Position numbers and translations under genes: made by a program | Part shown: positions 59,747 to 64,000 of the stretch, piece after piece | Numbering within the stretch: the first letter of the stretch is position 1 | How the letters are laid out: every line of letters begins with the position of its first letter | Source: Acidimicrobiales bacterium | GTDB taxonomy: Bacteria > Actinomycetota > Acidimicrobiia > Acidimicrobiales > SKKL01 | Length of the DNA stretch: 64,000 nucleotides | Direction: 5' to 3' | NCBI GenBank assembly: GCA_034521975.1 | Contig: JAXHLR010000009.1 | Location: 62,001-126,000, forward strand | The notes under the pieces: generated by a model | What the model saw: only the letters and a program-made list of their open reading frames with translations | What the model was told of the DNA's origin: nothing | Database searches by the model: none

Positions 59747-60738
59747 GTCGCCCCCACCTCGGCGGTCCTGGACCGCTGCCCCTGGTCCTCGGCGGGGGGA
59801 TCGTCGACAGGATGCCCGGTGAGGGCGAAGAACACGTCGTCGAGCGTCGCGCGCGCGGTCGCAACGTCGTCCACCACAAGTCCCAGGTTGTCGAGATGAC
59901 GGATGAGCCGCGGGACCACGCCGTCGAGGGTCTCGACGGGAACCCGCACCGAGCGGCCGCCGGGATCGACCACCAGCTCACCGCAGGCGTGAGGCGCCAA
60001 GACCTCCCGGGCCCGGTCGATGTCGCGGTGGTCGGCCAGGGTCACGACCACCTGCTCGCCACCCACCCGGCGCTTCAGATCGGCGGGCGTGCCACGAGCG
60101 ATGACCCTGCCCAGGTCGATCACCGCGATCTCGTCGGCGAGCCGGTCGGCTTCGTCGAGGTACTGAGTGGTGAGCAGCGTCGTGGTGCCGGCGGCGGTGA
60201 GCTCGTCGATGAGCTCCCACACCGCGATCCTGCTCCGGGGGTCGAGCCCGGTGGTCGGTTCATCGAGGAACAGCACTGCGGGATCGCCGACCAGGCTCAT
60301 CGCGATGTCGAGCCGTCGGCGCATGCCCCCCGAGTAGCCGCCGGTGACCCGTGACCCGGCCTCGACGAGGTCGAACCGCTCGAGCAGTTCCGAGGCGCGG
60401 CGCCGTGCCTCACGCTTGGGCCGGTGGAACAACCGGCCCACGTGCTCGAGGTTCTCGAAGCCGGTGAGGCGCTCGTCGACCGCGGCGTACTGGCCGGTGA
60501 GTCCGATGCGGGCGCGCGCTTCGCGGGGGTCGGCCATCACATCGATGCCATCGATCCATGCCCGCCCCGCGTCGGGCGCGAGCAGGGTGGTGAGGATTCG
60601 CACCGCGGTGGTCTTGCCCGCGCCGTTGGGCCCGAGGACACCGAGCACGCTCGACCGGGCCACCTCCAGATCGACGCCCCGGAGCGCCTCGGTCGTTCCG
60701 AACCGCTTCGTCAGGCCCTCGGCCACCACCGCGTTCAT
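59743..60738 (-). CDS. ABC transporter ATP-binding protein (DrrA-like)
   Basis: A 331-residue ATPase of the DrrA type. Walker A is [14 protein letters not shown], the Q-loop is IGLTGQYAAVDE, the signature is YSGGMRRRLDIA and Walker B is VLFLDEPTTGLDPRS. The C-terminal 90 residues carry the DUF4162-like regulatory domain of drug and lipid exporters. The start is uncertain: ATG codons at 60738, 60750 and 60801 are in frame; 60738 begins just before the conserved domain. It is divergent from the ArsR-fusion gene, and its promoter must lie near the arsenic operator. It overlaps the permease gene by four bases. Confidence 0.92.
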   Translation of the reverse strand: MNAVVAEGLTKRFGTTEALRGVDLEVARSSVLGVLGPNGAGKTTAVRILTTLLAPDAGRAWIDGIDVMADPREARARIGLTGQYAAVDERLTGFENLEHVGRLFHRPKREARRRASELLERFDLVEAGSRVTGGYSGGMRRRLDIAMSLVGDPAVLFLDEPTTGLDPRSRIAVWELIDELTAAGTTTLLTTQYLDEADRLADEIAVIDLGRVIARGTPADLKRRVGGEQVVVTLADHRDIDRAREVLAPHACGELVVDPGGRSVRVPVETLDGVVPRLIRHLDNLGLVVDDVATARATLDDVFFALTGHPVDDPPAEDQGQRSRTAEVGAT

Positions 60739-60844
60739 GAGCCCACCCATGGCGATCCCCGCCGACCGATCACCCTCGTGCCGATTCGCATCAAGGGCCA
60801 ATCACACCACGCCCGGCACCGACGAGGCCACTCACCACCGATCG

Positions 60845-60862
60845 ACTCAATCCGCGTTGAGT
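60845..60862. promoter_or_regulatory. ArsR-type operator candidate
   Basis: ACTCAA-N6-TTGAGT is a perfect inverted repeat with the TCAA-N6-TTGA core usual for ArsR-family sites. It ends three bases before TACGAT (60866-60871), a -10 element that is itself six bases before GTG 60878. Binding here would cover the -35 region and block a leaderless transcript. The position next to an ArsR gene supports autoregulation. Confidence 0.65.
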
Positions 60863-60877
60863 GATTACGATGGCGAC

Positions 60878-61603
60878 GTGCCCCACTCGTCGACATCGGA
60901 CTCGTCGCTCCACGTGCGGGCGACACGGCACGCGGCCTTGGGCGACCCGAGCCGCCTCGCCATCGTCGACTCGTTGGCCATCTCCGACCGCTCACCGGCC
61001 GAGCTCGGCCGGTCGTTGCAGCTGCCTTCGAACCTGCTCTCCCACCACCTCGACGTCCTGGAGCGGGTGGGCCTGGTCGAACGAACACCCTCCAGCGGCG
61101 ACCGGCGTCGCCGCTATGTGCGCCTGCTCCTGCAGGTGCCGTACCTCCCCGACGTGGTGCGGACGCCGGCTCGACCGGCGTTGTTCGTGTGCACCCACAA
61201 CTCGGCGCGAAGCCAGCTCGCGGCCGCGCTCTGGCGGTCGGTCACCGGCGAGCACGCCCTCTCGGCGGGCACCGATCCCAGCGACCGCGTGGCCCCCGGC
61301 GCGATCAGAGCGGCCCGCCGCGCCGGCCTCGACCTGGGCGACGCCCGTCCACGACCTCTCCACGAGGTCGTCGACCCACCCTCGCTCGTGGTCACCGTGT
61401 GCGACCGGGCCCACGAGGCTCTCGGGCCCGTGCCGAGCCACCTCCACTGGTCGGTCCCCGACCCGGTCGTCGCCAACACCCCGGAGACCTTCGACCGAGT
61501 CGTCGTCGAGCTCCGCGGACGCATCGAGCGCTGCTTCGCCCCCAGTGCGGGCGGCACGGCGCATCGCTCCCCTCCCCCACCCGAAGGAAGGCACGATCCA
61601 TGA
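60878..61603 (+). CDS. ArsR-type regulator fused to a low-molecular-weight phosphatase/arsenate-reductase domain
   Basis: A 241-residue fusion. Residues of about 8-80 form an ArsR winged helix (SPAELGRSLQLPSNLLSHHLDVLERVGLV). From about residue 98 comes a low-molecular-weight phosphatase fold with the CX5R loop FVCTHNSARSQLAAAL. The redox cysteines seen in the next gene's product are replaced, with one in TVCDRAH, so reductase activity is uncertain; the domain may sense arsenate or phosphotyrosine-like ligands. GTG 60878 is six bases after a TACGAT hexamer, which favours a leaderless start; TTG 60857 is the alternative. It overlaps arsC by four bases. Such fusions occur in actinobacteria. Confidence 0.85.
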   Translation: MPHSSTSDSSLHVRATRHAALGDPSRLAIVDSLAISDRSPAELGRSLQLPSNLLSHHLDVLERVGLVERTPSSGDRRRRYVRLLLQVPYLPDVVRTPARPALFVCTHNSARSQLAAALWRSVTGEHALSAGTDPSDRVAPGAIRAARRAGLDLGDARPRPLHEVVDPPSLVVTVCDRAHEALGPVPSHLHWSVPDPVVANTPETFDRVVVELRGRIERCFAPSAGGTAHRSPPPPEGRHDP

Positions 61604-62025
61604 CCACCGAAGCACCTGAGGTTCTCTTCGTCTGTGTCCACAACGCCGGCCGGTCCCAGATGGCGGCCGCCCTGTTGCAGCACCACGCGGGCGACCGGGT
61701 CGTGGTTCGCTCGGCGGGCACCGCCCCCGCCGAGGAGATCAACCCCGCCGTCGTCGATGCCATGGCCGAAGTCGGGATCGACCTGCTCGCGTCCGGCGCT
61801 CACCCCAAGGCGCTCGATGACCCCGCCGTCGAGGCCTCCGACGTGGTGATCACCATGGGCTGTGGTGACGAGTGCCCCTTCTACCCCGGCAAGCGATACC
61901 TCGACTGGTCATTGGACGACCCCGCCGGCAAGGGGGTCGAGGCGGTGCGTCCCATCCGCGACGACATCGACCGCCGGGTCCGCGAGCTGCTCGACGAACT
62001 CGTACCCGACACCGCCACCTCGTAG
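61600..62025 (+). CDS. arsC: Arsenate reductase, low-molecular-weight phosphatase type
   Basis: A 141-residue reductase that converts arsenate to arsenite. The catalytic loop is FVCVHNAGRSQMAAAL (CX5R). MGCGDECPFYPGKRY holds the second and third redox cysteines, and DWSLDDPAGK is the family's general-acid region. Whether it uses thioredoxin or mycothiol cannot be decided by eye; the short length and an actinobacterial host fit either. GAAGGAAGG precedes the ATG, which overlaps the stop of the ArsR fusion gene (ATGA). No arsenite efflux gene is next to it, so arsenite must leave through a pump encoded elsewhere. Confidence 0.93.
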   Translation: MTTEAPEVLFVCVHNAGRSQMAAALLQHHAGDRVVVRSAGTAPAEEINPAVVDAMAEVGIDLLASGAHPKALDDPAVEASDVVITMGCGDECPFYPGKRYLDWSLDDPAGKGVEAVRPIRDDIDRRVRELLDELVPDTATS

Positions 62026-62049: not shown

Positions 62050-63132
62050 CTACCGCTCGGTGGTCGCTGCCTCGAAGCCCGACCAGCGGTGGGTCGTGAA
62101 GTCGTAGAGCTTGCAGGTGCGGAAGATGTGCCTGACCGTGCGCCACCGGAACCGGTAGGTGGTGATCTCGTCGCCGTGGACGGCCGCCAGGTCGGCCGAG
62201 GCGCCCGCGAGCCGGTAGAAGGGGATGCGGGTGTCCACGTGGTGGGGCGTGTGCACGAGGATGTGGTGGGTGAGGTGCTCCCACACCGGGTTGCACCGGA
62301 TCGTGATCGAGCTGCGGAGCTGTCCGTCGAGGGCGCTCCACTCGCGACGCTCGTCGTAGAAGGCCACGTCGGGGTGGGTGTGGTGCAGGTAGACGAAGAA
62401 CGCGATGAACCACGTGAACACCACGAAGGGAACAACGACCGCGGCCACCGCGGCGACCGGACCACCGAGGAGCCACGCCACCGTGCCCAGCCCCAGGGCG
62501 TAGGCCAGCGTGATGACCTTGGTGGCGCCCACCCCGCGGGTCCTGCGGGCTCGGGGGTCGGGGCGGAAGCGCACCATGCCCTGCCACCACACCCGCAACA
62601 GGTAGTGCAGCGCACAGGTGACGGGGTGGCGTTCGAGCCGGTACACGAGCCGGCTCCATCGGCTGGCAGCGCGGTACTCGTCGATGGTCCACGGTCGCCA
62701 GATCCAGTCGATGGTGCTCAGGCTGGTGAACCCGTGGTGAACCTTGTTGTGGCCGAACACCCAGAGTCGGTACATGTTCAGCGACGGGAGCATGGCGATG
62801 GTGCCGAGCACCTCGGACACGCGGTCGGAGTCGAACAGCGCCCCGTGGGCGGCGTCGTGGCCCCACACGAACGCGAACGCCACCGCGAACCCGGCGAGGA
62901 CGCCGAAGCCGATGGTGAGCACCGGGTTGGCGACCACGATGGCGGCGGCGATCAGCGCGGTGTACAGCGCCAGGTCGAACGCCAGGGTCAGCAGCGCCCG
63001 CGCGGTCGAACGCTCGTAGCAGCGTGGGGAGAACGCGGCGCGCACCTGACCGAGGGTGAGCCGGCGTGGGGAGTGGGGAGCCGGCTCGGCGGTCTGGGCG
63101 GCATCTGGGGTGGTGATCGTCGAACTGCTCAT
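62050..63132 (-). CDS. Membrane fatty-acid desaturase
   Basis: A 360-residue di-iron membrane desaturase. Three histidine clusters are in place: HDAAH (about 91-95), HNKVHH (about 128-133) and, near the C-terminus, HHILVHTPHH. An extra HHTHPD lies in between. Hydrophobic pairs flank them, giving four membrane passes. It is predicted to introduce a double bond in an acyl chain using oxygen and electrons from ferredoxin or a similar donor. ATG 63132 lies eight bases after a TAGGCT hexamer, with no ribosome-binding site. A perfect 20-bp palindrome overlaps that hexamer, so control by a TetR-like repressor sensing acyl-CoA is likely. Confidence 0.9.
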   Translation of the reverse strand: MSSSTITTPDAAQTAEPAPHSPRRLTLGQVRAAFSPRCYERSTARALLTLAFDLALYTALIAAAIVVANPVLTIGFGVLAGFAVAFAFVWGHDAAHGALFDSDRVSEVLGTIAMLPSLNMYRLWVFGHNKVHHGFTSLSTIDWIWRPWTIDEYRAASRWSRLVYRLERHPVTCALHYLLRVWWQGMVRFRPDPRARRTRGVGATKVITLAYALGLGTVAWLLGGPVAAVAAVVVPFVVFTWFIAFFVYLHHTHPDVAFYDERREWSALDGQLRSSITIRCNPVWEHLTHHILVHTPHHVDTRIPFYRLAGASADLAAVHGDEITTYRFRWRTVRHIFRTCKLYDFTTHRWSGFEAATTER

Positions 63133-63142
63133 GGCCCGAGAG

Positions 63143-63162
63143 CCTACCTACCAGTAGGTAGG
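63143..63162. promoter_or_regulatory. Perfect 20-bp palindrome over the desaturase promoter
   Basis: CCTACCTAC-CA-GTAGGTAGG has two perfect 9-bp arms. On the minus strand it overlaps the -10 candidate TAGGCT (63141-63146). The CTACC..GGTAG form is common for TetR-family operators. The helicase gene on the other side starts 108 bases away, with no clear promoter. The only TetR gene in the window is at 10354, too far to assume a link. Confidence 0.7.
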
Positions 63163-63270
63163 TGATGCCAGGGCCGAACGTCCCGAGCTCGCACGGGGCC
63201 CGGATTGCCCCTGGCCCGATGGTGATCGAAGCTGGACCGTCCCCGACCTGGACACTGGTTCGCCCCACCC

Positions 63271-64000
63271 ATGACACCCGCCACCCGCGATGCTCACCGC
63301 GCCGAGCTCCACCGGCACCTGACCGGTGCGCTCCGGTTCCCTGCCGACCTACCGATCAGCGCGCGCCGCGACGATCTCGTGACGGCCATCGCCGAGCACC
63401 AGGTGGTGGTGGTCGCCGGCGAGACCGGCTCGGGGAAGAGCACCCAGCTCCCCAAGCTGTGCCTCGCCGCCGGACGTGGGCGTGACGGGTTCATCGGCCA
63501 CACCCAGCCTCGCCGCATCGCTGCCCGGACCATCGCCGAACGAGTCGCCACCGAGCTCGACACCGAGCTCGGCGGGGCGGTCGGCTACACCGTCCGATTC
63601 CACGACCAGGTCGGCGACGACACCCTCCTCAAGGTGATGACCGACGGCATCCTCCTCGCCGAGATCCAACGCGACCGCCTCCTGTCGCGCTACGACACGA
63701 TCATCATCGATGAGGCGCACGAGCGCAGCCTCAACATCGACTTCCTCCTCGGCTACCTGCACCAGCTGCTGCCCCGACGGCCCGACCTCACGGTGATCAT
63801 CACCTCGGCCACCATCGACACGGCCCGGTTCGCCGAGCACTTCGACGACGCCCCGGTGATCGAGGTGTCGGGCCGGACCCATCCGGTCGAGATCCGCTAC
63901 GAACCACCCGAGGACCCCGACACCGGCGTGGCGCTCGACCAGTCCGAAGCCATCGTCGGCGCCGTGCGCTCGTTGCAGCGCGAGGGTCCCGGTGACGTGT
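63271..64000 (+). CDS. hrpA: ATP-dependent RNA helicase HrpA, 3' end outside window
   Basis: The first 243 residues of a DEAH-box helicase. [19 protein letters not shown] (about residues 44-62) is the P-loop, [15 protein letters not shown] is motif Ia, [20 protein letters not shown] is motif II with the DEAH box at about 147-150, and [11 protein letters not shown] is motif III. The order and spacing match HrpA, which unwinds RNA and rescues stalled ribosomes in E. coli. No other in-frame start is near ATG 63271, and it lacks a clear ribosome-binding site. The frame is open to the window end, so the helicase C-terminal and OB-fold parts are missing. Confidence 0.93.

Follow-up and report, generated by a model that had tools for sequence, protein, structure and literature searches.

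A palindromic promoter element in Acidimicrobiales as the predicted operator of a TetR-type regulator of fatty acid desaturase genes

Introduction

Acidimicrobiales are widespread and mostly uncultured. The closest described counterparts of the regulatory system reported here are MadR and DesT, two members of the TetR family, to which FabR and FasR also belong, and the mycobacterial genes desA1 and desA2 are taken here to encode acyl-ACP desaturases of the PF03405 type. In mycobacteria, both genes are repressed by MadR (Rv0472c / MSMEG_0916), an acyl-CoA-responsive member of the TetR family, and deletion of madR leaves the genes adjoining it unaffected, according to excerpts of two reports (PMC8872791; PMC6398593). 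Release by saturated C16-C24 acyl-CoA is a feature of MadR. DesT of Pseudomonas aeruginosa and FabR are described, in an excerpt of PMC8872791, as controlling desaturase genes through acyl-CoA. PfmR (TTHB023) of Thermus thermophilus is a TetR protein tied to fatty acid genes and has the operator TACCGACCGNTNGGTN, as reported in an excerpt of PMC7022988 that names no desaturase targets for it. Finally, the OsdR site is given as AGGGCCGATCGGCCCT in part of PMC5069765.

The element considered here is a palindrome located in a stretch of 64,000 nucleotides (hereafter, the window; G000:C9:62001-126000) of an Acidimicrobiales genome of 3.3 Mb, which is 98.7% complete and consists of 10 contigs (G000, the source genome). 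Judging from sequence comparisons, the palindrome is most likely a TetR operator that would work in the manner of the MadR and DesT systems. The likeness to MadR includes an acyl-ACP desaturase as a predicted target (the site at C3:90975 and 38/42 promoters in genomes with the candidate TetR), whereas membrane desaturases are also predicted targets here. The two systems differ in their operators: TCTGTGN7GT, the consensus published for MadR, is not matched exactly at any of the palindrome loci of the source genome (L001-L003). A single match to this consensus falls within the gene that precedes the candidate TetR gene (L097 5235-5249), and none of the 12 NCBIfam matches of the candidate protein is a model named Rv0472c. 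DesT and FabR come from another phylum and are likened to the present system by their targets and their described acyl-CoA control. As for PfmR, its operator TACCGACCGNTNGGTN shares the core of CCTACCKACYRGTMGGTAGG, the sequence family of the palindrome, and PDB entry 3vpr, the structure of PfmR, is the best single-sequence match of the candidate TetR, with RutR ranking first when a profile is used; the protein similarity, however, is only that of TetRs in general.

A second element adjoining the palindrome, the box GGGACNWWNGNCCC, resembles the sites of DevR/DosR and OsdR. Here, the box is paired with a predicted TetR operator on a desaturase promoter, in contrast to the available part of PMC5069765, where no such pairing is mentioned. 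A search of the open-access literature returned no report of a regulon of this kind, and a search of open-access papers for the operator strings returned no relevant paper.

Results and Discussion

On the forward strand, positions 63143-63162 of the window read CCTACCTAC-CA-GTAGGTAGG, with two 9-bp arms flanking a 2-bp centre (Table 1). The initial annotation had described a perfect 20-bp palindrome at 63141-63162; the palindrome is real, but it starts at 63143, and its two central bases are unpaired, so that 18 of the 20 positions are symmetric. Full symmetry is observed in the two other copies of the genome, where the centre is CG. Symmetry by itself proves nothing and was rejected as evidence: perfect 9-bp inverted repeats with a 2-bp gap occur twice in the window, compared with a mean of 0.9 in 30 first-order simulations (at the window composition of 69% G+C), and are thus expected about once per 64 kb of similar composition. 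It is the recurrence of the same letters that exceeds chance. The window contains a single match to the palindrome at ≤3 mismatches, and no match appeared in 100 shuffles.

The desaturase gene that follows the palindrome has its ATG (63132, minus strand) 10 nt away and encodes a protein that matches Pfam FA_desaturase with an E value of 1.6e-24; its nearest NCBIfam model is the Delta(5) desaturase DesA, with a score far below the cut-off. The divergent gene for an HrpA-type helicase starts 108 bp from the palindrome and is probably not one of its targets. Elsewhere in the window, ORF 60344-61603 contains another 20-bp inverted repeat, ACCGGCCGAGCTCGGCCGGT (60994-61013), which is probably a chance occurrence. 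Inspection by eye suggests that this ORF carries an ArsR-like helix-turn-helix and an arsenate-reductase-like (low-molecular-weight phosphatase) domain in a single frame, and that another arsenate-reductase-like reading comes immediately after it, inside ORF 61189-62025 (whole region, 60861-62025).

Table 1. Coordinates of the features around the palindrome, given as positions of the window
Feature	Position	Strand	Remarks
Palindromic operator (predicted)	63143..63162	minus	reads CCTACCTAC-TG-GTAGGTAGG on the minus strand
-10 element TAGGCT (inferred)	63141..63146	minus	its first four bases are the last four of the palindrome
-35 hexamer position, by 17-bp spacing	63164..63169	minus	GGCATC, poor match
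DevR/DosR-like box GGGACGTTCGGCCCT	63170..63184	minus	7 nt upstream of the palindrome; abuts the -35 position
DesA-type membrane fatty acid desaturase, 360 aa	62050..63132	minus	ATG at 63132
HrpA-type RNA helicase gene, divergent	63271..63999	plus	continues past the window end

A genome-wide search for the site, as proposed in the initial annotation, was carried out in the source genome and in related ones. At ≤3 mismatches, the source genome contains three sites, each with 0 mismatches, and the reversed control pattern gives four matches; because of the latter, the argument rests on exactness and position and not on the number of matches. The first site is that of the window, upstream of the DesA-type desaturase gene. 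The second, at C3:90975, lies 9 bp upstream of a gene for a soluble acyl-ACP desaturase (PF03405, E 3.3e-64), and the third, at C5:171644, is found 10 bp upstream of a nitronate monooxygenase (NMO) family gene (PF03060, E 1.4e-16). The earlier suspicion that the regulator may control more genes thus agrees with three perfect sites, two of them before desaturases. With a looser pattern, three more places of low quality (2-3 mismatches) come up in the same genome, versus nine for the control. These places were excluded from the counts, and the use of matches with 2-3 mismatches as evidence was rejected, since the reversed control matches as well.

At the level of the phylum, the exact family CCTACCKACYRGTMGGTAGG is present in 8 of 396 genomes, the source genome included, while its reversed pattern is found in 0/396. 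These genomes are confined to the same order (7/30) and the other orders of the class (1/8), with 0/358 in other classes. Across 148 genomes, again including the source genome, ≤2 mismatches give 85 sites in 59 genomes, whereas the reversed control gives 29 sites in 27 genomes. The census of targets took in 75 of the 85 sites, from the source and related genomes (loci L001-L073), and 64 of these 75 have a desaturase gene of one of three types downstream. Acyl-ACP desaturases account for 30 sites and DesA-type membrane desaturases for 13; the remaining 21 belong to a second membrane-type desaturase, either alone (12) or sharing the site with a divergent TetR gene (9). This second type also matches PF00487 (E 4e-17 and 1e-18 in two examples). 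Furthermore, two sites precede an NMO-family gene, two adjoin a TetR gene alone, one of the latter being non-orthologous, and no recognised target was found downstream of seven of the 75 sites. Ten further sites come from Aquihabitans sp. G128, two Ca. Microthrix bins, ZC4RG19 and two phylum genomes, although the ZC4RG19 site is not independent of the set of relatives, as it appears to be G077. Nine of the ten adjoin desaturases and cover all three kinds; no desaturase adjoins the tenth, which has two mismatches.

The candidate regulator is the TetR protein encoded at G000:C9:46340-47041 (L077), outside the window and 78 kb from its site on the same contig. It carries a TetR_N domain (PF00440, E 3.4e-15, above the cut-off) and the C-terminal domain PF17938, and is one of 22 TetR_N matches above cut-off in the source genome. 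In ten genomes, a TetR gene lies beside a site, and the ten proteins are 58-71% identical to L077; the next best TetR of the source genome by score, L085, reaches only 30-36% with them. The recognition helix of the site-adjoining orthologues is mostly constant (GIRRPSLLHHF). With orthologues defined by at least 54% identity (the next matches are at 32-36%, and only fragments occur in G013 and G133), the protein is present in 58 of the 148 genomes. The palindrome and the orthologue occur together in 51 genomes, the palindrome only in 8, the TetR only in 7 and neither in 82. When one genome per family is retained (n=60), the distribution is preserved: both in 24, either one in 3 and 3, neither in 30 (p 2e-10).

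The same relation is readily apparent at the promoters, where a match to CCTACCKACNNGTMGGTAGG with ≤2 mismatches was counted as a site if it fell in the 200 bp upstream of the gene. The palindrome proved to be conserved in orthologous promoters: acyl-ACP desaturase promoters bear the site in 38/42 cases in genomes with the TetR orthologue versus 2/30 in genomes without it, and DesA-type promoters in 14/16 versus 1/10; for NMO promoters, the figures are 2/7 and 0/6. These tables omit the fragment G001:C69 (in the DesA-type search) and TetR matches at 32-36% identity. With one genome per family, the acyl-ACP promoters still differ (17/19 versus 2/10, p 4e-4), and the DesA-type promoters (5/7 versus 1/5, p 0.24) fall below significance. 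The closest DesA-type genes outside the TetR-containing set (G043, 58%; G089, 53%) have no site, whereas most TetR-containing genomes whose DesA-type genes are only 34-40% identical keep it, with G020 and G039 as exceptions. The correspondence is not complete in either direction: the site is absent despite the TetR at 4/42 acyl-ACP and 2/16 DesA-type promoters, and three genomes (G014, G033 and G048; 95, 92 and 88% complete) have a site before a desaturase gene with the TetR orthologue undetected.

Regarding the TetR gene itself, its promoter in the source genome has no site, and the link between regulator and operator therefore rests on co-occurrence and on the neighbours in other genomes. 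Since only 10/58 orthologue promoters carry the site, autoregulation was rejected for most genomes. Among the best 80 of 294 named TetR loci, the site is found in nine, eight of them with a divergent desaturase, and one locus has a divergent desaturase without the site. Non-orthologous TetRs adjoin near-matches (CTTACC...) in G115 and G080 (L009 1044-1063 and L010 1501-1520), which suggests that similar operators may serve other TetRs. In the family labelled f35, G037 and G119 have GVRRQSLLHYF as their recognition helix, and the acyl-ACP sites are altered (CCTGCC...) in G037 and G086 (loci L129, L127, L180 and L186); a co-change of regulator and operator is possible, but it was set aside as proof, given that it concerns one family and that the altered sites are imperfect as palindromes. 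Two genes directly follow the TetR gene of the source genome, one of ATP-grasp type and a CoA-binding one of the ADP-forming acyl-CoA ligase type (G000:C9:44194-47041; L097 2195-5042). Such ATP-grasp and CoA-binding neighbours are found at 42 and 39, respectively, of the best 80 of 294 named TetR loci, and at 9 and 7 of 30 loci in relatives. Records titled Ca. Microthrix have both the TetR orthologue and sites. A few records with a TetR of the Acidimicrobiales type are titled Bifidobacterium breve, Acidobacteria or Thermoanaerobacterales (L280, L285, L284, L328 and L324) and are probably mislabelled MAGs.

The position of the palindrome within the promoter was derived from an alignment of 57 acyl-ACP, DesA-type and NMO promoters bearing the site, the second membrane type being excluded; they belong to a total of 111 desaturase and NMO promoters, of which the 54 without a site remained outside the alignment. 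In 52 of the 57, the second base past the palindrome is T, so that the palindrome end and the two bases that follow it read TAGGNT, a plausible actinobacterial -10 element. Upstream, T is enriched at -7 (37/57) and -6 (28/57), which places the start of the -35 element there and gives a spacer of 17 bp. In 29 of the 57 promoters, 8 nt separate the palindrome from the start codon, and transcription therefore probably starts at or next to it; some of the assigned starts (gaps of 0, 1, 5 and ≥40, and one with none) were chosen by script and may be wrong. In its usual position in the aligned promoters, the palindrome would thus take up the 17-bp spacer as well as four bases at the start of the -10 element, and so overlap the core promoter as deduced from the alignment. 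A sigma-70 consensus scan found no promoter at the window site. That the palindrome covers the likely -10 element had been a guess from one sequence and now gains support from the 57 promoters, and a near-leaderless desaturase gene is possible, with the ATG 10 nt past the palindrome in the window rather than the 8 nt of the commonest arrangement.

The DevR/DosR-like box, as well as the fact that symmetry alone is uninformative, had been overlooked in the initial annotation. The box GGGACGTTCGGCCCT is the only exact match in the window to the pattern GGGACNWWNGNCCCT, with 0.01 expected. It is found in 5 of the 57 promoters, each time at a distance of 7-8 nt upstream of the palindrome when measured from CCC: those of the desaturase and NMO genes of the source genome, of DesA-type genes in G001 and G003, and of an NMO gene in G098. 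The matches in the promoters from which the pattern was derived are not independent, because the pattern comes from them. Two DesA-type loci (G020 and G065) have a box match upstream and no palindrome. In the source genome, the pattern has 13 matches (L348-L360), 11 of them independent of its derivation, and the reversed pattern has none; these 13 boxes likely represent a DevR-type regulon, as far as can be judged from sequence. Taking the start codons chosen by script, boxes among these 11 lie upstream of two multicopper-oxidase-domain (Cu-oxidase) genes, a gene for a ScdA/hemerythrin-type protein and one for an amine-oxidase-domain flavoprotein, and further precede alcohol dehydrogenase, AMP-binding enzyme and cupin genes. 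Two box-preceded genes gave no Pfam match in the scanned part, one of which resembles a molybdopterin oxidoreductase by eye. Two more, also by eye, appear to encode an acyl-CoA dehydrogenase and a substrate-binding protein. The predicted Cu-oxidase-domain and ScdA/hemerythrin genes behind boxes would fit induction by hypoxia or NO.

A probable DevR relative is encoded in the source genome by the response regulator gene L367, whose best match among solved structures is DevR (PDB 3c3w, E 1.1e-72), followed by VraR (1.5e-39). Among NCBIfam models, it scores best with NF047785, 'MadR family response regulator' (181.5 bits, below the cut-off of 300), a family distinct from the TetR-type MadR (Rv0472c). 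In the window, some 43 bases separate the centre of the box from the inferred transcription start, and the box adjoins the poor -35 hexamer (GGCATC), a position that would suit an activator. TT at -7/-6 occurs in 0/5 promoters with the box versus 21/52 without it, and T at -7 in 35/52 of the latter; the difference in the -35 region between the two groups is a trend only and is not claimed as a result.

Collectively, these findings make it highly probable that a TetR repressor uses the palindrome as its operator, that most members of the corresponding Acidimicrobiales regulon are fatty acid desaturase genes, and that the TetR L077 is the regulator. The initial annotation had implied a TetR-like regulator acting from elsewhere, and both points are upheld on sequence evidence by an orthologue group that co-occurs with the sites and adjoins them, and by a candidate located 78 kb away. 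A chance inverted repeat, or a terminator or hairpin with no regulatory role, would be compatible with the expectation of about one perfect 9+2+9 repeat per window. This reading is already contradicted by conservation, as the same letters stand at three promoters, position and targets are retained in many families, and no exact match occurs in 358 genomes of other classes; moreover, no terminator-like site was found at the palindrome, whose loop would comprise two bases. Such an origin is extremely improbable.

Greater weight can be given to the possibility that another DNA-binding protein, either a different TetR or a member of another family, binds the palindrome and that the TetR at C9:46340 is merely co-inherited with it. 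The source genome offers 22 TetR_N matches above the cut-off, the promoter of its own TetR gene has no site, and non-orthologous TetRs adjoin near-matches in G115 and G080. It is, however, the same orthologue group that stands beside sites in ten genomes and co-occurs with them over 60 families, and in f35, one family only, the GVRRQSLLHYF helix of G037/G119 is found alongside altered acyl-ACP sites in G037/G086, so that binding by another protein is considered unlikely. The regulator could also be an activator or a dual regulator instead of a repressor, since FasR activates its targets according to an excerpt of PMC8872791. Against this stands the placement of the site, which fills the spacer and overlaps the -10 element in the aligned promoters, where a bound dimer would compete with RNA polymerase; an activating or dual role of the candidate TetR is accordingly regarded as very unlikely.

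Conclusions

In the proposed mechanism, a dimer of the TetR protein (G000:C9:46340-47041) would bind the 20 bp and cover the spacer together with four bases of the -10 element, thereby excluding RNA polymerase from a leaderless or near-leaderless promoter. Repression by polymerase exclusion is the natural reading of this coverage. Long-chain acyl-CoA would set the affinity of the TetR for its operator, so that desaturation would follow the state of the lipid pool; sensing of acyl-CoA is suggested by analogy with MadR and DesT and, weakly, by the ATP-grasp and CoA-binding neighbours. At the window and NMO promoters, a DevR/DosR-type activator bound to the box would probably add a low-oxygen or NO signal, an input that is assigned to the DevR-like box by analogy.

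Taken as a whole, the proposal is that of a lineage-wide Acidimicrobiales regulon in which one TetR, acting on an operator built into leaderless promoters, would control oxygen-dependent desaturases of three types, some promoters in the lineage of the window carrying in addition a DevR/DosR box at fixed spacing. These would act as a composite switch, with low oxygen raising and lipid state lowering the making of unsaturated lipids; the chances that this full scheme holds are judged to be even. With an operator, a candidate regulator and a set of targets at hand, the control of membrane lipids in Acidimicrobiales becomes testable, and a function is proposed for the whole group of TetR orthologues. 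The arrangement further suggests that oxygen sensing and lipid desaturation, itself an oxygen-requiring reaction, may meet at the level of the promoter.
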